From: an uncultured SAR116 cluster alpha proteobacterium
GTDB lineage: Bacteria; Pseudomonadota; Alphaproteobacteria; Puniceispirillales; Puniceispirillaceae
DNA length: 64,000 nt
Direction: 5' to 3'
NCBI GenBank assembly: GCA_902520885.1
Contig: CABYPW010000001.1
Coordinates: 1 to 64,000, forward strand
Positions 49,462 to 62,726 of this stretch are shown piece after piece. The notes under the pieces are model-generated. The model saw only the letters and a list, made by a program, of their open reading frames with translations, did not search any database and was not told the origin of the DNA. Position numbers and translations under genes: made by a program. Every line of letters begins with the position of its first letter. Position 1 is the first letter of the stretch.

Positions 49462-50453
49462 TTACAATTCAATAAAATATACATTTTCAAGATGAGCTAT
49501 TTTTTTCTTTAGAAATAAGTTAAACTCATAATTGCTACCACAATTTTTCTTCACATTTGAAGTGTAAAAAACAACTTTTTTCTTATGTTCCGACGCATGA
49601 ATTATGAGTCTTGAACCAAGGGTCCTAACCTCACTCACAAAAGGTAAAATTACTTCTGCCGGAATATTTGGTTCTATTTGACTAATTATTTTAAGTTTCT
49701 TTAATTCATCTCTTCCAGATATGTAACGTTCAATATCAGTATCAGGGTGGAGCTTAAGAACGTTGTTTGAACTTAAATTTAAATCCAAAATAAACCTATC
49801 AATTATTTTTTTTCCAAATGCTTTTACATCGTGTTCATAGGAATACCCTAACAGGTATAAGGTTTTCTTAGTATATTTACGCTTTAAATGCGAACTATGT
49901 GTTAGGATTTTCTCTGGCTCAAACAATTGGTGCTTAAGCTCAAGCTTTTTTTTTGTTATATAGACTGGAAGCTTCCCTAAAAAAATTTCTGAGTCAACGC
50001 TTAGAACTTGAAGAAAATTTCTTAGAAAAAATAGCGAAAGAAAAAATTGAATAAATAATTGTTTCTTTCCCAATAGTAGGAAAATAGATGCTTTTTTTAT
50101 TTCACGTGACGGGACTAGTGGCACGTATATCAGTTCAGACCTGCTATTACAAAGAAAAGATAGGAAGCCAATGTCGTCACAAAAACTTGAGAAAAAGATT
50201 TGAGAAGTTTCGTCCTCAAATTCATCATACTCATTTGGAGCAAACCAAGTTTTTAGATCTTCATAAAAAAAACGTGGCCTAATAACTTTGCTTGAAACAT
50301 TAATTTTTCTTATTTTAAATCCCATATTTGAAATATGTGAATAGACAGAGTTAGAAGGCGTGATTATCTTTATTTTAGGATATTTTTCTATGATTTTAAG
50401 GGCCGTAGTTATTTGCTCAAAACTATTACAAAAATAGAACTTTTTTTTTTCAT
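49462..50453 (-). CDS. Polysialyltransferase-like glycosyltransferase with A10 tract frameshift after the ATG
   Basis: The uninterrupted frame covers 287 codons from an internal ATG at 50325. The same frame is open without stops back to 50442, and a start ATG at 50451-50453 overlaps the preceding stop as ATGA. Between them lie ten A residues (50441-50450 read on minus). With A10 the ATG leads to a stop after 14 codons; with one A more (A11) or two fewer (A8) it reads straight into about 330 codons. So the gene needs slippage or is switched off. The product pattern (KIKIITPSNSVY, LKLHPDTDIERY, IPAEVILPF, VRTLGSRLI) loosely resembles GT52/polysialyltransferase proteins, fitting its place after the NeuB gene. 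Confidence 0.7.
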
Positions 50454-52684
50454 GATAGCTGAAAATCCTCTAGCATTTCTAATGCTTTCCAAAATCCTAT
50501 ACCTTGATTCTTATGACCTTGCCAAATTTCTGGTATAAAAGACGCATCAGGACAATATTTATCTAAAGTTTTTATCAAACTATCAAAATTTATTGTACCC
50601 TCTCCAATTTGTAAACCTTCACCATTCGTGCCATCTCCATCTCCAAAATGAATGTGTTTTACAAATGGTGATACAGCTTCTACGTATTCAATCAAGTTTT
50701 TATTAAATTCGTTACAGTAAAGGTAACTATGGGAAATATCCAAACAAATATTTAATTCTAAAACTTTACAATATTTTATAATTTCATCTAAATGTAGGAA
50801 TAAGTTCTGATATCTTTGACCCCCAAAGTGCCACGGAAATGGTGCCATAGTTTGTGCGATAATCTCAACATCATTACTCCTGAGTTGTTTTAAACTATCA
50901 GCAAATAAGGAATACCTTTTCACCCTTTCCTTCTCTGTCAAAGGAGAATCCATGGTAAATCCACCTATATTAGTAACTATTAATGGTTTTTTCGTTTTTG
51001 GGAAAAGTTCTTTCAAGTTTTGGGTTATATGAATAATTTTTCTCATTTCATTTATAGAGTTTTCTCTATAAACCTCCGATAAAGACGCCAAATCTAATAA
51101 ATGACTATCCTTGAATAGTTCCGGGGCATGAACCACAAAATCCATAGTTTGGGGACCATGAATAAAATTTGAAAATTCCAAATTCATGTCAGAATAAGAT
51201 AAGTGAAATTCCACTAAATCAGGATTTGAGATATCCTTGAATTTCTGAAAATCATGATAACGAACGGGGATGCCCCATGGCCTAGAAAATTTATATTCAC
51301 GGGCATTTATTGCATCATCGTTTATATCTGATTCAAAAAAATAATCTTCTTTCTCAAAATCTCGCTTAGCAACTTTTCCAATAATATTTTGAATTTTTTG
51401 GGGACTTAAGCCTTGACCAGGGCTTTTAATATTTAGATGATGCCTTTTTAAAATAGTTCCTTTCTTAATAGCTGTTTTTGCGACAATACTTTTGCCAAGA
51501 TTCTCTCGATTTATTAATTCCCCTTGGGAAACACTCTTGGCATTACTGCTACCTAATGCTATTTCAATTTCTCTAACACCTTCAACTAATAAACTAAATT
51601 CCTCAAATTCTAAACTTGCGGCATGATCTGGACCTTCCATCGTTCTATCTAATGTAAAATGTCTCTCAATAATGCAGGCCCCTAGTGCAATAGCCGCCTG
51701 AGAAACTGCTATTCCCCGTTCGTGGCCGGAATATCCTATAATGGGGTGAATATTCTTCAATGTATTTAAATAATTTAAATTTATATCATCTAGGGGAGCC
51801 GGGTAAGTGCTGTTGCAATGCAACAACGCAAAACTTGTTCCCAGTCTATTTAAATACTCCACAGAAAATTTAATTTCTTCCTGTGTTGACATACCCGTTG
51901 AAAGTATTAACGGTTTATAAGTATCGTGAAATTTTTCGAGCAATGGTATATTAGTTAGATCAGCAGAGGAAACTTTATAACCCTTAACACCAAATTCCTC
52001 TAAATTTTCGATACTTACTTCATCCCAAGCAGTACATAAATACAATATGCCTAAATTATCACAGTATTCTTTCAGTTTAAAATGTTCATCCACTGTTAGT
52101 TCAATTTTCTCCAGCAAATCAAGAACATATTCAGTTGCAAGATCCTCTCCAGTTTTTTTAAGAGTTTTTTCTCTATAGAGCGACTGTAAATCTCTCATTT
52201 GAAATTTTACACAATCAACAGCTGCTTTCTTTGCTAAATCTACCATTTCTTTGGCCCTATCGAAGCATCCATTATGATTATTACCAATTTCAGCAATTAT
52301 AAATGTTCTTGCATCAGGTCCAACTGTGTGATTACCAATAACCATATCATTAGGAGGGTTTCGCAACACTCCAACCACAGAGCCATTTGATTTTATAACT
52401 GGATAAACCTTATATCGTGGATCAAATATTGCTTTTGAGATGTTATTTTCTTTTATGCTTTTACAATCAGTATTGCAAACTTCTATTACCTTTGTTTTGT
52501 TAGGCGTAACTCTTGACTCAATTAAACCCCTTCTAATATCCGAGTCAGTTATGCTTCCTAAGAGCTTTCCATTTTGGTCTATTACAAAAAGCGTTTTCTC
52601 GTGAATATGAGTCAAGCTCTCAAGCGCTTTTTCTACTAAGACAGAGCTTTGTACAAAGTATTTTTGAGTTTCAACGAAAATCAT
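50450..52684 (-). CDS. CBS - NeuB synthase - SAF - TIM barrel fusion (nonulosonate synthase)
   Basis: A 744-residue fusion. Residues 1-115: a CBS-domain pair (TLFVIDQNGKLLGSITDSD, YPVIKSNGSVVGVL). Residues about 121-375: NeuB synthase barrel, with IIAEIGNNHNG, LHCNSTYPAP and GYSGHERGIAVS plus the RHFTLDRTMEGPDH metal/substrate segment. Residues about 385-450: SAF/antifreeze-like domain (RENLGKSIVAKTAIKKG). Residues about 465-744: sugar isomerase/AP-endonuclease-like barrel with CLDISHSY, HIHFGDGDG and FIPEIWQG. NeuB condenses PEP with a six-carbon sugar to a nine-carbon acid; the added domains suggest nucleotide sensing and built-in precursor processing. It overlaps the next gene as ATGA. Confidence 0.87.
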   Translation of the reverse strand: MIFVETQKYFVQSSVLVEKALESLTHIHEKTLFVIDQNGKLLGSITDSDIRRGLIESRVTPNKTKVIEVCNTDCKSIKENNISKAIFDPRYKVYPVIKSNGSVVGVLRNPPNDMVIGNHTVGPDARTFIIAEIGNNHNGCFDRAKEMVDLAKKAAVDCVKFQMRDLQSLYREKTLKKTGEDLATEYVLDLLEKIELTVDEHFKLKEYCDNLGILYLCTAWDEVSIENLEEFGVKGYKVSSADLTNIPLLEKFHDTYKPLILSTGMSTQEEIKFSVEYLNRLGTSFALLHCNSTYPAPLDDINLNYLNTLKNIHPIIGYSGHERGIAVSQAAIALGACIIERHFTLDRTMEGPDHAASLEFEEFSLLVEGVREIEIALGSSNAKSVSQGELINRENLGKSIVAKTAIKKGTILKRHHLNIKSPGQGLSPQKIQNIIGKVAKRDFEKEDYFFESDINDDAINAREYKFSRPWGIPVRYHDFQKFKDISNPDLVEFHLSYSDMNLEFSNFIHGPQTMDFVVHAPELFKDSHLLDLASLSEVYRENSINEMRKIIHITQNLKELFPKTKKPLIVTNIGGFTMDSPLTEKERVKRYSLFADSLKQLRSNDVEIIAQTMAPFPWHFGGQRYQNLFLHLDEIIKYCKVLELNICLDISHSYLYCNEFNKNLIEYVEAVSPFVKHIHFGDGDGTNGEGLQIGEGTINFDSLIKTLDKYCPDASFIPEIWQGHKNQGIGFWKALEMLEDFQLS

Positions 52685-52724: not shown

Positions 52725-53708
52725 TTATGAAAAATAAATTATTTTTGAGCCATTGAAATCAAATTTAAATGGAACGAACATTTTATCAGCTAAAGCATCT
52801 TTTATTTTTGTATGAAATTCTGGTGCAGCTAAAAAAAGCATAAAACCGCCACCACCCGCTCCAAGAAGCTTTCCACCCATGGCACCATTCTTTTTTGCTA
52901 TTTTATAGATTTCATCTATGTGGCTATTTGATATTAATTCTGTTAATCCTCTTTTGATTTTCCATTGTTCATCTAATAAACGCCCGATTTCAGATAAAAA
53001 ATCATTTTTTCCTCCAAAAGCTTTATACCCCTCTTCACAAATAGATAACATATAATTAAGATCTATCTTTTTTGATTTTGTGAGATTTATTTGTGTTTCT
53101 GCTATTTCTGACGCATTTCTTGTAAAACCAGTAAAACATAATAGGAGATGGTTTTCTAATTTTTTTAGATCAATATTATTCAATTTTATAGGATAAACAT
53201 TGAATTCATTTAAATCAGAATATTCAGTATAATTAATACCTCCATAAGAAGCCGCCACTTGGTCTTGGGAACCAACTGCCTCACAAATTTTGTCTTGCTC
53301 AATCTCAATGGCTTTCAATGCGAGATCTCTTTTTGAAATAAGTTTGCCCTCAAACCCCGTTAAAGCATTTATCATACTTACCGTAAATGCTGAGCTCGAA
53401 CCTAAACCTGAACGAGATGGAAGGTCCCCTTGATGTACAATTTCCAACCCCGAATTAATATTGAAATATTTCAAACATTCTCTAATTGAAGGATGTTTAA
53501 TTGTCTCAATAGAAGAGACTTCCTCAGTCATGAAATATCTCAATCTCCATTTATAGTCAAAAAAAGGTGGCAATTCTCTTATTGAGATGTAACAAAATTT
53601 ATCGATGCAGGCATTTATCGTTTTACCACCGTTTTGCCGGTACCATATTGGGTAATCCGTTCCTCCTCCAAAAAATGTAATGCGAAAAGGTGTTCTTACA
53701 TTTAACAT
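52725..53708 (-). CDS. hddA: D-glycero-D-manno-heptose 7-phosphate kinase (HddA)
   Basis: A 327-residue GHMP kinase. The N terminus RTPFRITFFGGGTDYP and the ATP loop LPSRSGLGSSSAFTVS are diagnostic of HddA, with C-terminal GGKLLGAGGGGFMLF. It phosphorylates heptose-7-phosphate at C1 in the GDP-D-glycero-D-manno-heptose pathway. It overlaps HddC by 7 bases. GmhA and GmhB, which complete the route, are not in the window. Confidence 0.9.
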   Translation of the reverse strand: MLNVRTPFRITFFGGGTDYPIWYRQNGGKTINACIDKFCYISIRELPPFFDYKWRLRYFMTEEVSSIETIKHPSIRECLKYFNINSGLEIVHQGDLPSRSGLGSSSAFTVSMINALTGFEGKLISKRDLALKAIEIEQDKICEAVGSQDQVAASYGGINYTEYSDLNEFNVYPIKLNNIDLKKLENHLLLCFTGFTRNASEIAETQINLTKSKKIDLNYMLSICEEGYKAFGGKNDFLSEIGRLLDEQWKIKRGLTELISNSHIDEIYKIAKKNGAMGGKLLGAGGGGFMLFLAAPEFHTKIKDALADKMFVPFKFDFNGSKIIYFS

Positions 53709-54466
53709 CGTAATTCCTTAATCTTTTCTATAATTTTTATAATAGAATCCATTCCACTGGAACGCCCATAGTCTGATGGAATCCCTATATCAATAAAATC
53801 ATCAGTGTAAATTTTTCCTGTTATCAAAATTTTTTTTAACTCTAACTTTTGCAAAATATCATTCTCAAAATTTAAATTTACATTTCGGGGAAAATCTTTG
53901 AGGATAGACCTTCCTGAAAAAAAATAAATACCCCCATTTTTTGCTTTAGATAGATTTTTTTCCTTCAAAAAATAATCCTTGTCCATCATCGTTTTCAAAT
54001 GATTTTTGCCATCCAGATAAACATCACCATAGCGAGTGTCATCAGACTTAAATAATGCCAGAGAGACATCTGCACCAAGCTTTTTTGAGAAAGAAAAAAA
54101 ATTACTTAAGTCTATATTAAAAAATGTATCTCCATTTAACACGAAGAAGGAATCATTGTCGTTGATACAATCACTAGATTTTAGAATAGCTCCGCCAGTG
54201 CCTAACAATTTTTCTTCTAGGGCATATCTAATTCTCATTCCCAAATACTCAGAACCAAAATAATTTATTATGTGTTCCGACTTGTATCCCACAGAAATGA
54301 TTACTTCGGTTATAAATTGGTTTTTGCAAAGCATCAAGAGTACCTCTAGAAATGGCACTCCATGGATTGGAGCCATCGGCTTTGGAACTCCCGGCAAAAC
54401 GGAACGTAACCTGGTACCTAAACCACCAGCCAAAATAATAACTTTTTTTGTTTGAATTAGCTTCAT
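53702..54466 (-). CDS. hddC: Heptose-1-phosphate guanylyltransferase (HddC)
   Basis: A 254-residue nucleotidyltransferase. The N-terminal LAGGLGTRLRSVLPGVPKPM loop, VGYKSEHI and LGTGGAI are typical of HddC, which makes GDP-D-alpha-D-heptose from heptose-1-phosphate and GTP. It overlaps hddA by 7 bases and the 4,6-dehydratase gene by 4 (ATGA), so heptose activation and dehydration are translationally coupled. A hexose-1-phosphate substrate cannot be excluded. Confidence 0.87.
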   Translation of the reverse strand: MKLIQTKKVIILAGGLGTRLRSVLPGVPKPMAPIHGVPFLEVLLMLCKNQFITEVIISVGYKSEHIINYFGSEYLGMRIRYALEEKLLGTGGAILKSSDCINDNDSFFVLNGDTFFNIDLSNFFSFSKKLGADVSLALFKSDDTRYGDVYLDGKNHLKTMMDKDYFLKEKNLSKAKNGGIYFFSGRSILKDFPRNVNLNFENDILQKLELKKILITGKIYTDDFIDIGIPSDYGRSSGMDSIIKIIEKIKELRC

Positions 54467-55482
54467 CTAATTAAGAACGCATTCCCATATTTTGAAACTT
54501 TCTCACGCCAATAATTTAATAAGTCTTCCATTGTTTTTTCAAAACTAATCTCAGGTTTCCAACCAGTATGGCTAAAGAATTTTTCAGTGCTAGGAAGCTG
54601 CAAGTCTGCATCAATTGGTCTCAATCTATTCTCGTCAACCACAAAATCTAACTCAGAACTTATTGAAGAAATAGATATTAAATGTTCTAATATACCTCTG
54701 ACAGTTACTGTATGAGTGCCCCCGATATTATAATATTCTCCGGCTATAGGGTTCACTGTAACCAGCAGGAAATACGCTCTTACAGCGTCCCGCACATCAG
54801 CTATAGTCCTCAAACTATCAAGATTACCAACCCGTATTATAGGTTCCTGAAACCCCGCCTCTGCCAAAGCTATTTGTTTAGCAAAAGAAGACTCTGCAAA
54901 TACATCCCCTCTTCTTGGACCCGTATGTGTAAACATTCTTGTAGTTAATACTTTTAGACCATATGCTTCTGCATAGAATCTTCCGATTAGATCCGTCCCC
55001 ACTTTAGAGATTGCATATGGTGAAGCAGGGTGAAAAGAACAATCTTCCTTTATGGGCGTTTTTTCCTTTGGCACTCTGCCAAATACCTCAGAAGAGGCAC
55101 AAACATGAATAATAGCCTTTGGAGAAGTTGTTTTGAGTGTTTCAAGAATAGTTGAGGTCCCCAAAATGTTTACATTATACGTTTCGAGGGGGCTAGAAAA
55201 ACTAGTCTTAGGAAAACTTTGCGCTGCAAGATGAAATACATAATCAAAGTTCTGGTTTTCTAGAGCATTATGAATTGATGTAGGGTCAGTTAGATCACCA
55301 TAGATAAAATTTACTCTATTGCTAGAATTTGCAAAATTTATAAGTGTGGAAATATTTTCTAAAGAACTTCTCCATCTTATTAATCCAACGATTTTCCAGT
55401 CAGTATTATTAATTAAATATTCAGCCAAATGAGAGCCAACCATGCCTGTAATTCCCGTAATCAACGCTATTTTTTGATTCAT
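54463..55482 (-). CDS. GDP-sugar 4,6-dehydratase (GMD/DmhA-like)
   Basis: A 339-residue extended SDR. NAD motif GITGMVGSHLAE, catalytic YAISKVGTDL (YxxxK) and TRMFTHTGPRRGD are typical of GDP-mannose 4,6-dehydratases. Members such as DmhA act on GDP-manno-heptose to give 4-keto-6-deoxyheptose. Direct coupling to hddC favours a heptose substrate. The 4-keto product is the expected substrate for the ColD-like enzyme at 58106. Confidence 0.85.
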   Translation of the reverse strand: MNQKIALITGITGMVGSHLAEYLINNTDWKIVGLIRWRSSLENISTLINFANSSNRVNFIYGDLTDPTSIHNALENQNFDYVFHLAAQSFPKTSFSSPLETYNVNILGTSTILETLKTTSPKAIIHVCASSEVFGRVPKEKTPIKEDCSFHPASPYAISKVGTDLIGRFYAEAYGLKVLTTRMFTHTGPRRGDVFAESSFAKQIALAEAGFQEPIIRVGNLDSLRTIADVRDAVRAYFLLVTVNPIAGEYYNIGGTHTVTVRGILEHLISISSISSELDFVVDENRLRPIDADLQLPSTEKFFSHTGWKPEISFEKTMEDLLNYWREKVSKYGNAFLIR

Positions 55483-55500
55483 ATTGGTTTCTCTCAGATA

Positions 55501-56472
55501 TTATATTTTTAAATTTCCAGCTTGTTTTGCTTCCAACCACCAACTGCAGGTTAAGGCAATTCCTGTTTCGAGCGATATTGACGGACTCCATCCTGTAGCA
55601 GACTTAAATTTTGAGTAATCAATTTCTATGTTAGTCGGTATTGTGGGCTTGGACAAATCATGATTTATGATTATATTCTTATCTGAAATTTTAATAATAA
55701 GTTCTATAACCCTTTTTACCGGTTCAGATTTTCCAGCACCAACATTAAATATTCCAAATTTTTCATTAATTTTTAATGAATTATCTACTGCTTTTACAAA
55801 ATCTGAAATGTACAGTAAATCTCTCCTTTCCTCACCTTTGCCCCAAATTTTGATTGAACTATTATTCTCAGATGAGAGAACTTTTGTAATATTAGCACCC
55901 ATCATATGGGACCGATCTAAATCAAATTTATCGTAAGGACCATAAATGTTGGAATGCCTTAATACAATATGTTGTGTATTTCCTATTCTTGAATAAAATT
56001 CGCACATTTTTTCGATATATAGTTTTGTGTTTCCAACTCCAAAATAATTTTCTTGAAGCTCCGCATTAGCATCAAAATCTGTTTCTTTTATAGCTTTGTC
56101 ACTGGTTTGATACATTACAGTACAACTCGGAAAAATAAATTTTTTTATTTTATTTTCGAAGGCAGCCCTGAGGATCAAACTATTTATAACTGCATTATCT
56201 GTCACATGAATAAAGGGCTGCAAAACCATATCACGAGCACCTGAGGTAGTGGCAGCAAATTGAAGAATGATATCTTTATTTTTACAGACTTTATTTACAA
56301 AATTTACATCTCTCAAATCACCTCTAATAAACTTTTTCCCAATCAAATGAGAAGGCACTTCAGACTTAAAAATGACACCTGTCACTTCATATTTAGGGTC
56401 ATTACAAAAGTAAGACATAAGATTTTGCCCTATAAAACCACTGGCACCACATATTAACATTTTAAGCATCAA
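55501..56472 (-). CDS. NAD-dependent epimerase/reductase, GDP-fucose-synthase-like
   Basis: A 323-residue extended SDR with GASGFIGQNLM at the N terminus, FPSCTVMYQ at the active-site Ser/Cys region, a Y-x3-K candidate around YFGVGNTKLY, and RHSNIYGPYDKFDLDRSHMM, all reminiscent of GDP-L-fucose synthase and its DmhB/ColC-like relatives. It likely epimerises and/or reduces a 4-keto-6-deoxy GDP-sugar. It overlaps the next upstream gene by 11 bases. Which of the three SDRs here performs which step is not decidable by eye. Confidence 0.8.
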   Translation of the reverse strand: MMLKMLICGASGFIGQNLMSYFCNDPKYEVTGVIFKSEVPSHLIGKKFIRGDLRDVNFVNKVCKNKDIILQFAATTSGARDMVLQPFIHVTDNAVINSLILRAAFENKIKKFIFPSCTVMYQTSDKAIKETDFDANAELQENYFGVGNTKLYIEKMCEFYSRIGNTQHIVLRHSNIYGPYDKFDLDRSHMMGANITKVLSSENNSSIKIWGKGEERRDLLYISDFVKAVDNSLKINEKFGIFNVGAGKSEPVKRVIELIIKISDKNIIINHDLSKPTIPTNIEIDYSKFKSATGWSPSISLETGIALTCSWWLEAKQAGNLKI

Positions 56473-57145
56473 TCATTTCCTTAATTGCATGTTCAGAATT
56501 AAAAATAAGGTTAGGGAAATGTGTATAAATAGGATTCTGATAGTTTATTGGAGAAATATATTTGTATGAACCGGTTTTACTATTCGATTTTAACATTTTC
56601 TTTACTTCATTAACCTTTATATTGTTAGTAGAAACAAAATCAAATGTACCCTTTGCAGTTAAGAATTTATCCGACGTCAGCGCACGTAAAAAACCATTCA
56701 CGGATATATAATTAAACGTAGACCATCTTGAAAGACCTATATTTTGTCCATACTTTAGTTTTGTTATATGATTTGGTCTCATGTAGGGGCCGATAATCAT
56801 TGATGACCTTAAAATCAAAGCGTGTGGGTGTTTTTTTAGAATCTCTTCGCAATTCAATTTTGCTCTACAGTAAATAGTTGTAGGATCTCTATAGATGTCA
56901 ACCGTAGAAATAAAAATGATCGTATCGTGGCTAATCTTTAGGATGCTCTTCAGAAGAAATTCGCTTTCCAAAATTATGTTTTCAGATTGATGTTCAGATG
57001 AACCAGCACAATGAATAATTATTGGGTAGTGTATTTTCGAATGCTCAATTAAATTTGACCTTTTTAAAGGAACTGAGTTTGGCATGGATTTATATAAAAA
57101 TTTTCCCAGACCAGAACTCGTTCCAGTTATTAAGATATTTTTCAT
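56462..57145 (-). CDS. Short SDR-family protein (nucleotide-sugar reductase candidate)
   Basis: A 227-residue Rossmann protein with GTSSGLGKFLY as dinucleotide loop, CAGSSEHQ, ISTVDIY and YCRAKLNCE (Y-x3-K), so the catalytic set is intact. It is shorter than typical extended SDRs (about 300), mainly in the substrate-binding C-terminal part. It overlaps both neighbours (4 and 11 bases). A reductase in the unusual GDP-sugar pathway is the likely role. Confidence 0.7.
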   Translation of the reverse strand: MKNILITGTSSGLGKFLYKSMPNSVPLKRSNLIEHSKIHYPIIIHCAGSSEHQSENIILESEFLLKSILKISHDTIIFISTVDIYRDPTTIYCRAKLNCEEILKKHPHALILRSSMIIGPYMRPNHITKLKYGQNIGLSRWSTFNYISVNGFLRALTSDKFLTAKGTFDFVSTNNIKVNEVKKMLKSNSKTGSYKYISPINYQNPIYTHFPNLIFNSEHAIKEMIDA

Positions 57146-58116
57146 TTATTAAATGCATTAAAACGATTTAAAACCGTTTCCCTATTTTCTGAAAACCACT
57201 TAATCGTGTCACGTATACCATCTTCAATTGAGATTTTAGGAAATAATCCCATTTCTCTAGCACGTGTGCAGTCCATAACCCTTATGTTATCGCCTACAAA
57301 TTTCGTCCCAAGCCAATTTATATCGAGTTCTGGATTTGTATATTTCACGACTATTTGTGCAATATCAGAAATAGAGTACCCAACACCCGAGCCTAAATTT
57401 ATTGGTTTTTCAATATCTTTTTCGATTGCAAATATCAACCCCTCTGCAACATCATCTGCATGAATAAAATCTCGAACAGGACTCCCATCACCAAAAACAT
57501 CTAATTTTTTTCTGGCTATTGCAGCTTTGTGAATCAGTGCCGGTATAACCATTGCTCCATTTAAATCAAAATTATCAAAACGTCCGTAAACATTTGCTGG
57601 ACGCAATATTTTTATTCCATTCCAATTATATTGAACCCTATAAGCATCAGCCTGCATTTCACCTATTCTTTTGGCCCACCCCCCATACCAATCGTTTTCT
57701 GACGGTAGGCCATCCCATAACTCATTTTCCTTGAACAAAGATGCAGGTGAATATACCCCAATTGAACTAGTGTAAGCTACTGCTCTTACTCCAGCGTTTC
57801 GGGCAGCCTCCATCACATTTGTATTGAATTGGATCATAGGAATAAAAAAATCTGCTGGATTTTGCATGCATGCCTGAGGTGAGCCCTTAATACCAGCTAC
57901 ATGAAAAACAATATCTATATCGTTCATGATATCTTTACAGAAACTAAACTCCCGCAAATCTCCTTGTTTAAACTGAACTTGTTTCGAATCATATTTATTC
58001 TCAAATAAGTCCACTGCTAGAATATTTGCTCCGCGTTCAATCATTTTATCAATAAGAGAACGGCCTATCATTCCATTTGCTCCAGTGATTAATACGTTTT
58101 TGTCTTTAAAGGTCAT
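57142..58116 (-). CDS. NAD-dependent epimerase/dehydratase, ColC-like candidate
   Basis: A 324-residue extended SDR: GANGMIGRSLID, YTSSIGVYSP, a W-A-K variant of YxxxK in YGGWAKRIGE, and RPANVYGRFDNFDLNGAM. It resembles GDP-fucose synthase/ColC. Lying directly after the ColD-like gene with an 11-base overlap, it could reduce (and epimerise) the 3-deoxy-4-keto sugar, as ColC does in colitose synthesis. The sugar identity is inferred. Confidence 0.8.
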   Translation of the reverse strand: MTFKDKNVLITGANGMIGRSLIDKMIERGANILAVDLFENKYDSKQVQFKQGDLREFSFCKDIMNDIDIVFHVAGIKGSPQACMQNPADFFIPMIQFNTNVMEAARNAGVRAVAYTSSIGVYSPASLFKENELWDGLPSENDWYGGWAKRIGEMQADAYRVQYNWNGIKILRPANVYGRFDNFDLNGAMVIPALIHKAAIARKKLDVFGDGSPVRDFIHADDVAEGLIFAIEKDIEKPINLGSGVGYSISDIAQIVVKYTNPELDINWLGTKFVGDNIRVMDCTRAREMGLFPKISIEDGIRDTIKWFSENRETVLNRFNAFNK

Positions 58117-59263
58117 TTAGTACCTCTGAAATTAATTTTATTTGACTGGGGGTCACATTCTCGTGATTTCCGATATATAAACCGAAAGTATGAATTTTAT
58201 TCGCATTTATTAGTTCACCTGAAACTCTATGGCTGTTTTCCAAAACAAACGGTTGTTTTGCTAAGTTTCCACCACCAGCAGTTCCAATACGAAACTCTAC
58301 TTTATTTTTCTTTAGACATTCCGTGATTTTAGAGAATAGCTTTTTATCTCCTTCTCGAAGAAGTAATGGTAGAGCAAAATTACTTGAACCCTCAAGATTG
58401 AATTCTGTGAAATATAGCGAACTGTCAAGACTCTCCAGCCAAAAAATTAGATTATTAGTTCTTATATCAATTATTGAATCTATTTTACTTAATTGTTGTA
58501 ATCCTAAAAAAGCGTTAATCTCAGTAGATCTTAAATTAAAACCAGGCACTGCAAACGTAAATAGTGGATTCAAGTCAGGAAATTCTGCTTTGAAAGTCTC
58601 CTGAGTGTTTTCTTCAGCTTCTCTGACCATCCCATGCGACCGAAACATTTTTGCCAACTCATTGAATTGAGCACTTTTCGAACAAACCATTCCACCCTCG
58701 ATAGTGGTAATATGATGACCATAATAAAATGAAAATACTGATAAATCCCCAAAAGACCCTACACGCTGATCTCTAAACTTGGCCCCATGTGCCTCACAAC
58801 AGTCTTCGATCAAGAAAAGATTATTTTTTTTACAAAGTTCAATTATTTTATCTGATAGCCCATTAAATCCGAGTGTGTGAATAAGAACAACTCCTATTGT
58901 ATCGGGTGTTATTGCCTCTTCTAGGGCAATCTCGTTCATACTGAAGTTTTCAATATTTACGTCTACGAAGACTGGTTTTAAACCCAATTGAATTAGTGAG
59001 GATATATCAGTTGACCATCCTATTGCAGGCACTATCACTTCACCAATACCATTAGCCTGTTTTAGAATTGCAGATGTAATTAAATTACCCGATGCCCCTG
59101 AATTAACCATTACTGAATTTTCCGCACCAACCCAAGAACTCCAGTTTTCCTCAAACTTTTTTACTAATGGGCCATTAGTAAACCGATTTGTAGTTTTAAT
59201 AAAATTGCATAATTCCTCTCGCTCAAAAGCACTAAATTTACCTTCCATTAAATTCCACATCAT
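58106..59263 (-). CDS. PLP-dependent GDP-4-keto-6-deoxy-sugar 3-dehydratase (ColD-like)
   Basis: A 385-residue DegT/DnrJ/EryC1/StrS-fold enzyme. The Schiff-base lysine found in aminotransferases is replaced: the local motif is FSFYYGHHITTIEGG with His at 183-184, the same YGHH arrangement as ColD (GDP-4-keto-6-deoxymannose 3-dehydratase). IEDCCEAHGA holds the PLP-binding Asp. The family removes the C3 hydroxyl using PLP and glutamate, giving a 3-deoxy-4-keto sugar. It follows the thiamine-enzyme genes (4-base overlap) and precedes a ColC-like SDR. Function as dehydratase rather than aminotransferase is strongly supported by the His. Confidence 0.88.
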   Translation of the reverse strand: MMWNLMEGKFSAFEREELCNFIKTTNRFTNGPLVKKFEENWSSWVGAENSVMVNSGASGNLITSAILKQANGIGEVIVPAIGWSTDISSLIQLGLKPVFVDVNIENFSMNEIALEEAITPDTIGVVLIHTLGFNGLSDKIIELCKKNNLFLIEDCCEAHGAKFRDQRVGSFGDLSVFSFYYGHHITTIEGGMVCSKSAQFNELAKMFRSHGMVREAEENTQETFKAEFPDLNPLFTFAVPGFNLRSTEINAFLGLQQLSKIDSIIDIRTNNLIFWLESLDSSLYFTEFNLEGSSNFALPLLLREGDKKLFSKITECLKKNKVEFRIGTAGGGNLAKQPFVLENSHRVSGELINANKIHTFGLYIGNHENVTPSQIKLISEVLNDL

Positions 59264-59805
59264 ACATCTACACCATACAAATCATAGTGTTCAACCATTA
59301 CGAAAGTACCCCTCTGTTTTAAGGCTTTTTGATATTCTAGTCGGGGATTGCTACCTTTGCTAAGCTCAATTATTTTTACCCAATCAAGCATCATTTTTAG
59401 AGCAGATGTGTGATTTTGGGTATGCTGAGGTCCCGCATCTAGAGGTTTTTTAGCTCCAACTGCTACTCTAAATATTATATTAGGTAAAAATTCCCCATTA
59501 CTCATTTCTGGGAGCTTATCTACATGGTTAACTAGCTGATTCAAACTTAATATAAAAAAATCAAACCTTGGATATATTGAAACAACAAAATTGTTATCCA
59601 TTGCAAGACCAAGCGCTAATCCTGTTTGAAGTTCTTCAAAAACGGGCAGCTCAATTTTTTTTCTGTCTTCTACCTCTTCTAATGTTGGCGAAATACCATG
59701 TCCACCATCCTTAACGCCCTGACCGATAAATATTGAATTATCCATCATTGAGATTTCATTCATTGCATCCGTCAAATGCTGTTTATAACTTAGTCCTTTT
59801 ATCAT
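59260..59805 (-). CDS. Thiamine-diphosphate enzyme, E1 beta/transketolase pyrimidine-domain subunit (short)
   Basis: A 181-residue protein resembling only the N-terminal pyrimidine-binding domain of E1 beta: SYKQHLTDAMNEI start, FIGQGVKDGGHG, the catalytic-glutamate region PVFEELQTGLALG and the RVAVGAKKPLDAGPQHTQ loop. Normal E1 beta is about 325 residues; the C-terminal transketolase domain is missing. It begins directly after the alpha stop with no gap. With the alpha-like subunit it should form a split ThDP enzyme transferring a ketol/acyl unit, proposed here to act on a keto-sugar. Confidence 0.78.
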   Translation of the reverse strand: MIKGLSYKQHLTDAMNEISMMDNSIFIGQGVKDGGHGISPTLEEVEDRKKIELPVFEELQTGLALGLAMDNNFVVSIYPRFDFFILSLNQLVNHVDKLPEMSNGEFLPNIIFRVAVGAKKPLDAGPQHTQNHTSALKMMLDWVKIIELSKGSNPRLEYQKALKQRGTFVMVEHYDLYGVDV

Positions 59806-60447
59806 TTAAAAATTAACCCAAGTTCCTGTTCCATGGTGAGGATATGATGGCTCATATTGATAGTAGACAACATTTTGTAGCAAATGCATTTTTCTACCCC
59901 AAGCCGATTGCGTATCCGAGGTAACGCTTTTTCCATTATCCTCAATCACAAACGTTAGAGGTAGGTTAAAATTAATGCTGTATTTGTATGCCTCCCAAAA
60001 AATACCAGTTTCATAAGTCATATCGCCTATAAAACACCAGACTCTTTGCCCATCATTTTTATTTTTTTTTGATAACGCAACACCCAAAGCAGCTGGAATT
60101 GAACCAGTAACAATAGAGGATGAATAAAACTTTGGCTCATTGCTTATTACACCCATACTTTTTCCAGCTAAAATTTTCTCTAATAAACAATCCCGGCTTA
60201 TGCCATGCAACAACGCATGATAATGATTACGCCAAGCAGAAAAAACCCAATCAAATTGACCAATATATTGGAAAATGTGCAACAATTCGTTTTCATTTCC
60301 TGAAGACAGATGTATTGGCCCAGTTATATCTCCAGCCTCATATCTTTTTACAATATCGTTCTCAAATTCAACTAATTCCTTAGAAGAATAAGGTATATTC
60401 TTTTTTTTCCCTATTTTTTCTAAAATATGGTTTCCATGCAAATTCAT
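59806..60447 (-). CDS. Thiamine-diphosphate enzyme, E1 alpha-like PP-domain subunit (short)
   Basis: A 213-residue protein matching the E1 alpha PP domain: RNHYHALLHGISR (E1: R-x-H-G-H-A), VTGSIPAALGVALSKK, and the ThDP-Mg motif GDM (141-143) ending in EDNG (169-172). Normal E1 alpha is 320-400 residues, so it is trimmed at both ends. Its ATG overlaps the RmlC-like stop by 4 bases and its stop touches the beta ATG. Placement in a nucleotide-sugar operon, away from any E2/E3 genes, argues against an oxo-acid dehydrogenase role. Confidence 0.8.
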   Translation of the reverse strand: MNLHGNHILEKIGKKKNIPYSSKELVEFENDIVKRYEAGDITGPIHLSSGNENELLHIFQYIGQFDWVFSAWRNHYHALLHGISRDCLLEKILAGKSMGVISNEPKFYSSSIVTGSIPAALGVALSKKNKNDGQRVWCFIGDMTYETGIFWEAYKYSINFNLPLTFVIEDNGKSVTSDTQSAWGRKMHLLQNVVYYQYEPSYPHHGTGTWVNF

Positions 60448-60953
60448 TTATCTCTATCCTGCAAAATTGGATTGTTATGAGGCCATGAGATTTGATGTCT
60501 ATCGTCATCCCATTTTATAGTAAATTGCTCCTCCACATCTGGATAATTGCCTTCGTAACACCATTTGTAATGAAAGACAACGCTATCAGATAATACAAAA
60601 AAACCATTGCCAAATCCAGGAGGCAATAATATTGAACGAGGACGGTCACCGCTTAAAACCATTGTTTCTGATTCAAGTTTATTTTGATTTTCATTGGGTT
60701 TTCGATAATCTACAACCGCAAAAAAAAGTTCCCCATAAAGGACAGTAATGTATTTGTGTGATTTATAGTCTCCGTGTATGCCTCTCAGCACGTTTTTTTT
60801 TGAAACAGATACTTTATCATGATTGAATTTGAGTTTACTGGGGTCTAGCCTACTGCTCCATATTGTCCATAGATTGCCGCGATAATCATAATGGGCATCA
60901 TGATTGCAAACACTAACTTCAGGGAATTTCTTTGATTTTGTCCAATTTTGCAT
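60444..60953 (-). CDS. RmlC-like nucleotide-sugar 3,5-epimerase (cupin)
   Basis: A 169-residue cupin of the dTDP-4-dehydrorhamnose 3,5-epimerase family. The catalytic His-containing VLRGIHGDY strand, ILLPPGFGNGFFVLSD and VFHYKWCYEG are the usual landmarks. It is slightly shorter than RmlC (about 180). No rmlA/rmlB genes are near, so it more likely acts on the 4-keto GDP-sugar of this cluster than on dTDP-rhamnose precursors. It overlaps the E1 alpha-like gene by 4 bases. Confidence 0.82.
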   Translation of the reverse strand: MQNWTKSKKFPEVSVCNHDAHYDYRGNLWTIWSSRLDPSKLKFNHDKVSVSKKNVLRGIHGDYKSHKYITVLYGELFFAVVDYRKPNENQNKLESETMVLSGDRPRSILLPPGFGNGFFVLSDSVVFHYKWCYEGNYPDVEEQFTIKWDDDRHQISWPHNNPILQDRDK

Positions 60954-60986: not shown

Positions 60987-62726
60987 TCATTTAAAAGTAA
61001 TTGAATGAAGTTTTTGATTATTCAAATTAAAAACTCTGTCACAAACCGAGAAAATTTCTTCTCTATGAGAAATTATAAAAAGAGTGATATCTGAAGGTAA
61101 AGAATTTAGGTAATATATAAAATCTCTTTCTGTGTTCTTATCAAGAGCACTTGTTGGCTCGTCAAATACAATAAATTTTGCTTCTTTATATAAAGCACGG
61201 GCGATTGCAATTCTCTGTTTTTGTCCTGAGGATAGCGAATTTCCACGTTCACCAACGGTGCTGTAAGATTTTTCTTCTCTCTCTTCTAAAAAGTTTGACA
61301 ATTGAGTTATTTTTAAACAGTAATCAAGCTTATCCTTACAAATATTTTTCGGATTTATGCCAAAAGCAACGTTCTCAGCTATACTTAAATCAGCAATGAA
61401 AACATTTTGTGATACATAAGCTACATTCTTTAACCAACCATTTATTAATTCTGGTTTTAATTTTCTTCCATTTATAAACACGTCTCCAGAGGTAGGTCTT
61501 TTTAGCCCCAAAAGAATAGCTCCCAATGTGCTCTTTCCTGAACCTGATGCCCCCATAATACCAATTTTTTCTCCGGCATAAATTTTCAGATTTAAAGCTT
61601 TCAAAACGTCGTTTTGTTTTCTGTAACCAAATGATAAATTTTTCATTTCAATATGTTTAAAGGCACCACTAAAAGTGTCTTGGCTTGATAAATCAGTTGC
61701 TGTCCAATGAACTTGTTTTTTGTTTAACTCAACTGATATGTCTTTTATAATTTGACTTGCACCATTTATAGAGGTCCAACTTGCATAACATTGTTGCATA
61801 AGCGGAAGAACTCGCTGTGCAGCAAGCGCATATCCCCCTAATAATGGCAATATTTCAATTACATCTAACCCTAGATTTATCATCACAATAATGTACACCA
61901 TAAATAATGAAAGTATTGTTGTCTCAATAATATTTTTTGGCAAACTTGATAAAACAGTAATATTCCTTATTATTTTTCTAAGCTTGGTTAAAATCGCGTT
62001 AAAACTATACTGATATTTATTACTGAGTTGGTAAATTTTTAAATCAGCAAAACCATCTAAGCTTTCTTGGCATATTCGAATCAGTTTATTTTGATTTAAA
62101 CTAAATTCCGTTGCCCATTTTTTTATTTTTGGATTGATAGTGTATGCAGCTAAAATATAACAAAATAGAAAAAAAACTATAGAAGCTATGGATAATACTG
62201 GAGCAGTAGAAAGCAAAAAAATAACAATTATCATTATAATGAAAGAGGAACTAATAAATACCAAAGTAGGTGTAATAACCATATTTACCAAATCGTTTAG
62301 TTTTGTACTTACAATTGCAATAACATCTCCAGTATGAAAGTTTTTGTTATATTGGTCAGAATTAATAATTACCTTTTGAAATAATTTAGAACCCACAAAA
62401 ACTCCTACCTCTTTTCCAATTTGAGCTTGGACAAAAACCAGAGTAGTGCGCAAGATTCCGCTTGCTAATATAAAAATAATAAACAAAATACCAAAGTTTG
62501 TAGTTCCCCCAATCCCCAGATTTTCAGATAAAATTTGCGTGAAAAAGTCATTTTGCTTACCTAGGTCAGCATTCCCTAACAATAAACTCGCACTTAAGGG
62601 TATTATAGCAGCAACACTCATCAATTCACAAAAAGCTGCGGTAAAAATAGTCATTACGTATAGGGCAAATTTTAGCTTATTCCGGCCTAATGCAAATAAG
62701 TAAAATTCAAAAATGGCTCCGAACAT
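60987..62726 (-). CDS. ABC transporter, fused permease-ATPase (PglK/MsbA-like flippase)
   Basis: A 579-residue half-transporter. Residues 1-330 hold six transmembrane helices; residues 350-579 hold the ATPase domain, with Walker A GASGSGKST, signature SLSSGQKQRIAIARAL and Walker B FIVFDEPTSALD. As the first gene of the long minus-strand glycan cluster it is most likely a flippase for a lipid-linked oligosaccharide, like PglK. It lies 33 bases upstream of the RmlC-like gene. MsbA-type lipid A export is the alternative. Confidence 0.85.
   Translation of the reverse strand: MFGAIFEFYLFALGRNKLKFALYVMTIFTAAFCELMSVAAIIPLSASLLLGNADLGKQNDFFTQILSENLGIGGTTNFGILFIIFILASGILRTTLVFVQAQIGKEVGVFVGSKLFQKVIINSDQYNKNFHTGDVIAIVSTKLNDLVNMVITPTLVFISSSFIIMIIVIFLLSTAPVLSIASIVFFLFCYILAAYTINPKIKKWATEFSLNQNKLIRICQESLDGFADLKIYQLSNKYQYSFNAILTKLRKIIRNITVLSSLPKNIIETTILSLFMVYIIVMINLGLDVIEILPLLGGYALAAQRVLPLMQQCYASWTSINGASQIIKDISVELNKKQVHWTATDLSSQDTFSGAFKHIEMKNLSFGYRKQNDVLKALNLKIYAGEKIGIMGASGSGKSTLGAILLGLKRPTSGDVFINGRKLKPELINGWLKNVAYVSQNVFIADLSIAENVAFGINPKNICKDKLDYCLKITQLSNFLEEREEKSYSTVGERGNSLSSGQKQRIAIARALYKEAKFIVFDEPTSALDKNTERDFIYYLNSLPSDITLFIISHREEIFSVCDRVFNLNNQKLHSITFK

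Follow-up and report, generated by a model that had tools for sequence, protein, structure and literature searches.

The window analysed here, a stretch of 64,000 nucleotides from contig CABYPW010000001.1 of an uncultured SAR116 cluster alphaproteobacterium, carries on its minus strand a cassette of eight genes that probably makes a branched, heptose-derived nucleotide sugar. Two of the eight encode a short alpha/beta pair related to the E1 component of pyruvate dehydrogenase (PDH), a thiamine diphosphate (ThDP) enzyme, and on comparison we consider it likely that this pair forms a carbon-carbon branch on the sugar. In 17 of 98 viral contigs (with 16 different alpha subunits among them) the same eight genes lie side by side, all on a single strand and ordered as in the window. 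Related viral cassettes carry other ThDP enzymes instead, and comparing them suggests a modular pathway of sugar branching in which the ThDP enzyme is exchangeable.

Organisation of the cassette

In the assembly (2.17 Mb, 39 contigs, 95% complete) the minus-strand gene run from 60953 to 54463 is unbroken and, by open reading frame call, extends through an HddC-like and an HddA-like gene to 52725. Neighbouring cassette genes overlap by 4-11 bases or abut, with the exception of a single pair separated by an 18-base gap. The genes are as follows.

60444..60953, minus strand: RmlC-like epimerase, cassette gene 1; solved GDP-4-keto-heptose epimerases and their kin at 130-142 bits
59806..60447, minus strand: mini E1alpha-like subunit, ThDP/PP domain, 213 amino acids; PF00676 at 2.5e-13
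59260..59805, minus strand: mini E1beta-like subunit, PYR domain only, 181 amino acids; NCBI PDH E1 beta model at 9e-13
58106..59263, minus strand: ColD-type pyridoxal phosphate (PLP) 3-dehydratase; ColD at 173 bits, His replacing the aminotransferase Lys
57142..58116, minus strand: SDR3, short-chain dehydrogenase/reductase (SDR) fold, GDP-fucose-synthase-like, without the YxxxK Tyr; GDP-fucose synthases at about 100 bits
56462..57145, minus strand: SDR2s, short SDR with YxxxK (34 of 34 sequences), candidate branch ketoreductase
55501..56472, minus strand: SDR1, SDR fold, TTG start; V at K-4 in place of the YxxxK Tyr; epimerase-like family matches
54463..55482, minus strand: GDP-heptose-type 4,6-dehydratase (GMD-like); PDB 7us5 at 335 bits
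53702..54466, minus strand: HddC-like heptose-1-phosphate guanylyltransferase; NF049965, 191 bits, 2.8e-56
52725..53708, minus strand: HddA-like heptose-7-phosphate kinase; NF049969, 153 bits, 1.2e-44

A sequence-only reading of this DNA had proposed an operon of overlapping or touching genes at 54463-60953, and the open reading frame call and family searches bear out both its coordinates and its gene families. The E1 alpha- and beta-like ThDP subunits that it named match models of those families, its ColD-type 3-dehydratase with a YGHH motif has ColD as best solved relative, and its coupling of the GMD-like gene to HddC and HddA is seen as adjacent genes with family matches, those of HddA and HddC lying below the equivalog cut-offs. 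The three proteins that it called SDR reductases or epimerases all have the SDR fold; two of them lack the YxxxK tyrosine, so the label is uncertain for these. Chance does not account for the operon: alpha belongs to a separate family, and the 17 viral contigs repeat the order of the eight genes.

After ColD, the solved relatives of the dehydratase fall to 111 bits (perosamine synthetase). Aligned with ColD, its YGHH motif matches the HH there and places a histidine in the PLP-binding Lys position; GHH is present in all nine printed rows (window and phage), and H183 and H184 are invariant in a five-member alignment. SDR3 has A, P or G at K-4 in 89 of 89 sequences, and SDR1 has V in 47 and A in one of 48, the Lys being kept in both; SDR2s, counted by the same method, keeps YxxxK throughout. 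A Pfam search gives no match for SDR2s, and no SDR2s was found in the named-phage collection.

A minimal E1-like pair

Both subunits are closest to PDH. A 43-member alpha profile finds human PDH E1alpha as its best solved relative at 3e-16, versus 3e-4 for split transketolase, which sets the pair apart from the latter type; a 42-member beta profile finds archaeal and human PDH E1beta. The Pfam family matched by alpha is E1_dh, and beta has no match in a Pfam search at 1e-3. Residues H46, R73, H75, G141, N171 and H204 are invariant in the alpha alignment, which retains the HL-motif His, the Arg, the ThDP-motif Asn and the nearly invariant Asp of E1alpha, and a conserved PHxGxG segment just before the C-terminal end resembles, by eye, what we take to be the E1alpha active-site loop. 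In beta, E57 and H128 are invariant across the 42 members and align with a Glu and a His of E1beta that are presumably its catalytic residues. The alpha model (pLDDT 92) has PDH E1alpha as its best Foldseek match. With TM scores of 0.85-0.87 (by query length), the beta model (pLDDT 94) matches eight top-ranked E1beta chains, which have 323-338 amino acids, and spans about half of such a chain, the transketolase_C domain at the E1beta C-terminus being missing.

Judged by alignments and models, the pair is a putative catalytic core of minimal size, and because transketolase_C is absent from beta we class it as an E1-like mini-pair and not as a complete E1. It likewise differs from YerE-like enzymes, whose single-chain TPP_enzyme_N/M/C architecture occurs in the viral locus L288. 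The possibility, named beforehand, that these are ordinary PDH or other oxo-acid dehydrogenase fragments is rejected: the pair belongs to a distinct short family of E1 type that keeps the E1 catalytic residues and lacks the E1beta C-terminal domain. Elsewhere in the same genome, E1alpha- and E1beta-like matches lie side by side at C19:16583-18496.

The genome encodes another E1 alpha/beta-like pair, of full length (PF00676; PF02779 and PF02780), at G000:C6:104.6-106.7 kb (L208:11614-13678). It sits in another glycan-like cluster with a GmhA-like gene; two DegT-type genes and one resembling a cytidylyltransferase were also recognised there by eye. Alphas similar to that of the C6 pair occur in the same-genus genomes G008 and G009.

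The eight genes in phages

The 98 viral contigs are distinct names after manual merging of repeats, and some are near-identical. The alpha scan contributed 52 of them, with the loci L170-L173 and L176-L199 of clade II (see the tree below) left out and L166 and L167 counted though they lie outside clade I; the others come from later scans and are absent from the tree. The second viral scan keeps the best 80 of 137 relatives, and viral loci were examined as stretches, mostly of 20 kb.

Across these contigs RmlC is present in 81, SDR3 in 83, GMD in 64 and ColD in 54. Identity between the window and the 17 full cassettes is 63-66% for GMD, 51-58% for E1alpha, 49-57% for RmlC, 49-54% for ColD, 48-54% for SDR1, 50-53% for SDR3, 39-48% for E1beta and 29-39% for SDR2s. 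In 15 of the 17 the gene that immediately follows GMD encodes an HldE-type kinase, in the place taken by HddC-HddA in the window. In L126 this kinase is of the PfkB family (phrog_8133), and the nucleotidyltransferase matches phrog_7878, 'bifunctional heptose 7-phosphate kinase/heptose 1-phosphate adenyltransferase'. Within the stretches examined, the 54 ColD-bearing viral contigs have the kinase in 38 cases, the nucleotidyltransferase in 20, and HddA, HddC or GmhA in none, L133 having one weaker nucleotidyltransferase match (73 bits).

Several of these contigs carry structural genes of T4 type. The Gp23 capsid protein was found in three of 20 viral records (L231, L233, L243) and terminase in six (L133, L231, L233, L243, L272 and, weakly at 8e-6, L129), while a second, overlapping set gave the T4 portal in seven of 20 records, L133, L231 and L233 included. 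On L133 a full cassette is accompanied by terminase and portal, and on L231 and L233 additionally by the capsid gene; on L137 a head maturation protease lies just downstream of it. Most other viral fragments tested for Gp23, terminase and T4 portal gave no structural gene. The Gp23 and terminase tests covered 14 of the 17 full-cassette contigs (L123, L137 and L214 were left out), and in 14 control bacterial genomes the terminase family also matches 11, Gp23 and portal none.

Median dN/dS between phage cassettes is 0.09-0.28 for the eight genes, with a maximum of 0.49, using pairs with pS of 0.02-0.6 only (14-22 pairs per gene). The eight genes are therefore under purifying selection and are kept in phages. 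The conserved co-occurrence in other genomes that the sequence-only reading had proposed to look for does exist, chiefly in phages, a place that it had not foreseen.

Past the end of the window lies a second shared module (G000:C1:64212-69475; L207:3713-8976) with genes of SDR, UDP-glucose/GDP-mannose-dehydrogenase, C-methyltransferase and nucleotidyltransferase type. Among the viral loci compared, their best matches are all in L133, at 51, 37, 49 and 42% identity, and L133 carries these relatives together with the full cassette; a fifth gene of the module (281 amino acids) has no match in those loci.

Linkage and exchange of ThDP modules

Viral loci anchored on ColD (the best 80 of at least 537 relatives) were compared with control loci anchored on a phage GDP-mannose dehydratase (the best 80 of at least 595), two of the three control seeds being true GDP-mannose dehydratases by the NCBI cut-off. 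This control replaced a UGD-like phage protein, which as anchor gave one locus only. A ThDP enzyme occurs in 72 of the 80 ColD-anchored loci versus 3 of the 80 control loci, and in 55 of 56 versus 2 of 33 when loci of at least 15 kb are considered. Clustering at 90% identity gives 42 of 48 ColD clusters versus 2 of 61 control clusters (only loci with a GQDG-bearing frame entered the clustered control), and 31 of 32 versus 1 of 25 for long loci. L346, the sole ColD locus of at least 15 kb without a ThDP enzyme, has a true GDP-mannose dehydratase beside ColD (547 bits, cut-off 415), a pairing likewise found in the colitose pathway.

The ThDP enzymes of the 72 loci are of four types: the mini-E1 pair is present in 49 loci (in three of them together with an acetolactate-synthase type), a longer E1-like pair (PF00676 with PF02779) in 18, a split transketolase (PF00456 with PF02779/PF02780) in four and an acetolactate-synthase type alone in one. 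The replacement module is upstream of ColD, no more than four genes away, in 17 of the loci that have the longer pair and in four that have the transketolase. In four printed loci the longer pair stands directly before ColD, the same position as that of the mini-pair in the window. SDR2s is present in 16 of 28 mini-E1 ColD clusters versus 0 of 14 with another ThDP type (p 2e-4). The presence of four ThDP types in ColD-anchored loci, against so few in the control, strengthens the sequence-only reading's proposal of a branched sugar.

In the viral ColD cassette of L288 (3914-6780) an acetolactate-synthase-type ThDP enzyme, whose frame begins inside the N-terminal domain so that its start is unsure, adjoins a PanB-type ketopantoate hydroxymethyltransferase. 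The latter suggests a phage-made hydroxylated or otherwise unusual 2-oxo-acid donor.

A probable heptose backbone

The GMD-like enzyme scores 335 bits against the GDP-D-glycero-D-manno-heptose 4,6-dehydratase 7us5, 177 against the next chain and at most 127 against GDP-mannose 4,6-dehydratases; its YxxxK motif is kept in 70 of 70 sequences. For the RmlC-like epimerase, the eight solved chains at 130-142 bits are followed by one at 58 bits. Four of the eight are GDP-4-keto-heptose 3- or 3,5-epimerases, three are of dTDP-rhamnose type and one is named both GDP-heptose and dTDP, the top chain being of dTDP-rhamnose type by 0.1 bit. A GmhB/HisB-like gene on C16 (114 bits) exceeds its cut-off. The sequence-only reading had raised a heptose origin as a possibility. 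It gains weight from two enzymes that are far nearer to GDP-heptose than to hexose enzymes and from the phage HldE-like kinase in the place of HddC/HddA, and on this homology a heptose backbone is likely.

Distribution of the alpha family

Some alpha match was found in 125 of 151 genomes searched, mostly in frames of 310-400 amino acids. The short alpha has 104 relatives in genome contigs, spread over several phyla, and 227 in viral contigs; 80 of each were kept, in the viral set the best 80. The tree has 139 rows (135 short alphas and four long outgroup alphas), identical sequences being entered once; it leaves out L099, which is over the length limit, and 14 of the 80 genome-contig loci, in which the alpha frame is masked by a longer overlapping frame. 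Clade I comprises 54 rows (46 viral, seven cellular and the window; SH-aLRT 96) and clade II 58 cellular and 20 viral rows (SH-aLRT 82), with three rows outside both. The window branch is long and its exact sister unsure.

Plasmid carriage was considered and rejected: all 228 matching plasmid records are below 60% identity, the 15 listed are at 25-30%, and where annotated the listed matches mostly bear dehydrogenase or ThDP-enzyme names. Nor is a recent transfer into the window supported by composition, the one measure used here, as the GC content of the cassette (0.349) is near that of the window (0.344).

A recurrent neighbour of clade-II mini-pairs (L036, L038, L053 and others) is a B12-binding radical SAM protein, which HddC- and GmhA-like genes often accompany, these neighbour labels being taken from the genes of L036; HddA-like genes are also present in the clade-II loci printed. 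This association perhaps reflects a methylated or rearranged heptose.

Proposed pathway and alternatives

We are able to propose a pathway in which every step, as well as the donor, the branch position, the reductase and the use of the product, is assigned by homology. Sedoheptulose-7-phosphate would be isomerised by GmhA-like enzymes encoded elsewhere in the genome, phosphorylated at C1 by the HddA-like kinase, dephosphorylated at C7 by the GmhB/HisB-like enzyme (its gene also lying elsewhere) and joined to guanosine monophosphate by the HddC-like enzyme. The GMD-like enzyme would convert this product to the 6-deoxy-4-keto-heptose, the RmlC-like protein would epimerise it next to the keto group, and the ColD-like enzyme would remove the C3 hydroxyl. 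The mini-E1 pair would then decarboxylate a 2-oxo acid, most likely pyruvate, and add a two-carbon unit to the C4 ketone, yielding a tertiary alcohol with an acetyl group that SDR2s may reduce to a hydroxyethyl branch. As the E1beta C-terminal domain is absent, the pair would be expected to work without E2 and E3. The product would serve a surface glycan encoded around the cassette. Transfer of a C2 unit from pyruvate to C4 appears somewhat more probable than its alternatives taken together, and the exact product is put forward tentatively; the gene content would suit the needs of a C4-branched 3,6-dideoxy-heptose.

In large T4-like phages, the HldE-type kinase, in part with the nucleotidyltransferase, would be the heptose-activation part, and relatives that swap the ThDP module for other ThDP enzymes would change the branch. 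It is possible, at slightly less than an even chance, that these phages combine a fixed heptose core (HldE-like enzyme, GDP-heptose-type 4,6-dehydratase, ColD-type dehydratase and SDR3) with an interchangeable ThDP carboligase, so that the sugars of related phages differ in the branch only. Such sugars might remodel the host surface, hiding or altering a receptor, or coat the virion, and the SAR116 cassette may derive from an old exchange with such phages.

Several observations weigh against this scheme. The HddA-like and HddC-like proteins, each with the named family as the best of its list, reach 153 bits against a cut-off of 600 (NF049969) and 191 against 300 (NF049965), and the GmhA-like genes on C11 (187 bits) and C6 (113 bits) are both below the cut-off of 209. 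SDR1 and SDR3 lack the catalytic Tyr, epimerisation at C3 by the RmlC-like protein makes little sense if C3 is later deoxygenated, and donor specificity is not readable from sequence. The linkage counts are not independent, since the viral loci are interrelated and 80 loci make 48 ColD clusters at 90% identity. SDR2s is missing from 12 of the 28 mini-E1 ColD clusters, so its role as reductase is not general. In 19 of the 80 ColD-anchored loci the mini-pair lies elsewhere in the locus, not beside ColD, and around the mini-pair of the seven cellular loci in clade I (L040-L045, L080) there is no ColD above 180 bits within 9 kb; the pair therefore need not act on a 3-deoxy acceptor. Finally, the short alpha is found in five of the 151 genomes, that of the window included (open frames of 203-213 amino acids, E at most 1e-51; next genome 6e-16), and no cellular locus other than the window was seen to carry the complete cassette.

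Other interpretations share parts of this evidence. The pathway may be as proposed and the pair may transfer another unit, either hydroxyacetyl, as transketolase does, or one from a longer 2-oxo acid, so that the branch is neither acetyl nor hydroxyethyl. Split transketolase and acetolactate-synthase-type enzymes in sister cassettes agree with this, as do the PanB-like neighbour in L288 and the preference of ErwE for hydroxylated donors (PMC12247030), whereas the mini-pair itself is nearest to PDH E1 and much further from split transketolase, and the alpha-KADH2 enzymes described in the same paper add C2 only. On balance we regard another unit as unlikely. Less likely still is a hexose pathway from GDP-mannose to a yersiniose-like C2-branched 3,6-dideoxy hexose, with HddA/HddC serving another sugar. 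The absence of HddA, HddC and GmhA from the stretches of ColD-bearing viral contigs fits a hexose, and so does the ColD substrate, which we take to be GDP-4-keto-6-deoxymannose. Yet the GMD-like and RmlC-like enzymes are of heptose type, the HldE-like kinase is present in most ColD contigs, and L346, with its true GDP-mannose dehydratase, has no ThDP enzyme.

It is improbable that the pair is instead a small transketolase/DXS-like enzyme that supplies sedoheptulose-7-phosphate and makes no branch: the alpha family is often found beside heptose genes in both clades, but the pair is nearest to PDH E1 and not to transketolase, and the acetolactate-synthase type of L288 would not make sedoheptulose. 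There is, furthermore, published doubt whether the lipopolysaccharide (LPS) genes of cyanophages are functional or 'stuffer DNA' (PMC3037559), and most contigs tested carry no structural gene; hence the phage copies could be non-functional filler or host contamination with a fortuitous match in order. With eight genes in order on 17 contigs, purifying selection, and T4-type genes on L133, L231 and L233, this is the most remote of the explanations considered.

Relation to known systems

Branching of keto-sugars by E1-type enzymes is an established reaction. Such pairs (alpha-KADH2) add pyruvate-derived C2 units to natural-product sugars with a keto group at C3 or C4, on the evidence of feeding, knock-out and in vitro experiments for single cases (PMC12247030), and Gram-positive bacteria use E1 alpha/beta pairs to make C2-branched antibiotic sugars (PMC4753412). 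AviB1/AviB2, Pau11/Pau12 and KbDH alpha/beta share with the window an E1-like pair for the actual or proposed addition of a pyruvate C2 unit to a keto-sugar; these enzymes serve specialised natural products, whereas the window type is found in surface-glycan and phage loci and with a probable heptose pathway. A 2025 review describes E1-type branching mainly in specialised natural products and, in its available part, presents viruses only as a place to look (PMC12247030). The closest parallel in a surface glycan is yersiniose A of Yersinia, in which YerE transfers activated acetaldehyde to CDP-3,6-dideoxy-4-keto-glucose for LPS (PMC12247030): a 3,6-dideoxy-4-keto nucleotide sugar, ThDP-dependent C2 branching at C4 and a surface glycan would be common to both (PMC12247030, PMC4753412). 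However, that system uses a CDP-hexose and a single decarboxylase-type flavoprotein, and the window probably a GDP-heptose and a split mini-E1 pair.

GDP-heptose modification supplies the nearest relatives of the GMD-like and RmlC-like enzymes (7us5; 3- and 3,5-epimerases) and shares an HddA/HddC-like supply. We take this system to be that of Campylobacter, and to our knowledge its pathways include neither a 3-dehydratase nor a ThDP enzyme. The colitose pathway (GMD-ColD-ColC) also shares a GDP sugar, a 4,6-dehydratase and ColD, and differs in its hexose and in having no carbon branching.

Marine T4-like phages (P-SSM2, S-SM2, S-SSM7 and pelagimyophages) resemble the present phages in their sugar-nucleotide gene clusters. 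LPS clusters of unknown function were reported in cyanophages in 2010 (PMC3037559), and pelagimyophages carry rfaE and glycosyltransferases that are thought to modify the host O-chain (PMC7029224); the available parts of these papers propose no product or pathway for a thiamine enzyme. PHROG 34187, which alpha and beta match alike, is a family of unknown function. In the cyanophages S-SM2 (L200:8971-10179) and P-TIM68 (L201:8052-9197) an alpha-matching gene of about 400 and 380 amino acids, respectively, is long enough for alpha and beta together; it is annotated 'transketolase central region' and lies near phosphoheptose isomerase and kinase genes.

Yersiniose formation by YerE, E1-type branching of antibiotic sugars, GDP-heptose modification and marine T4-like phage LPS clusters are thus already known kinds of system. 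As far as our searches go, the mini-pair, the probable heptose substrate and the ordered eight-gene cassette common to bacterium and phages are new, and nothing found in the literature searched (open-licence papers only) describes this pathway for phages or surface glycans. The implications would be several. An ordered pathway under purifying selection, with a predictable product, makes directly testable the 'stuffer DNA' question about the LPS-like clusters that marine T4-like phages have been known to carry since at least 2010 (PMC3037559), and phage sugar genes of puzzling role would gain a product that can be tested. The pathway would also extend E1-type carboligases, described for antibiotic sugars, to viruses and surface glycans, link phage genomes with a surface locus of SAR116, and offer natural enzymes, in four alternative ThDP types, with which tertiary alcohols could be synthesised.

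Neighbouring genes

Two further minus-strand genes flank the run.

60987..62726, minus strand: ABC transporter gene upstream of the cassette; PF00005 at 1e-30, PF00664 at 3e-9
50450..52684, minus strand: CBS-NeuB-SAF-xylose-isomerase-like fusion in a single gene; PF00571, PF03102, PF08666, PF01261

The transporter has no counterpart at 1e-20 in the viral loci compared. The fusion gene probably serves another sugar of the same locus.

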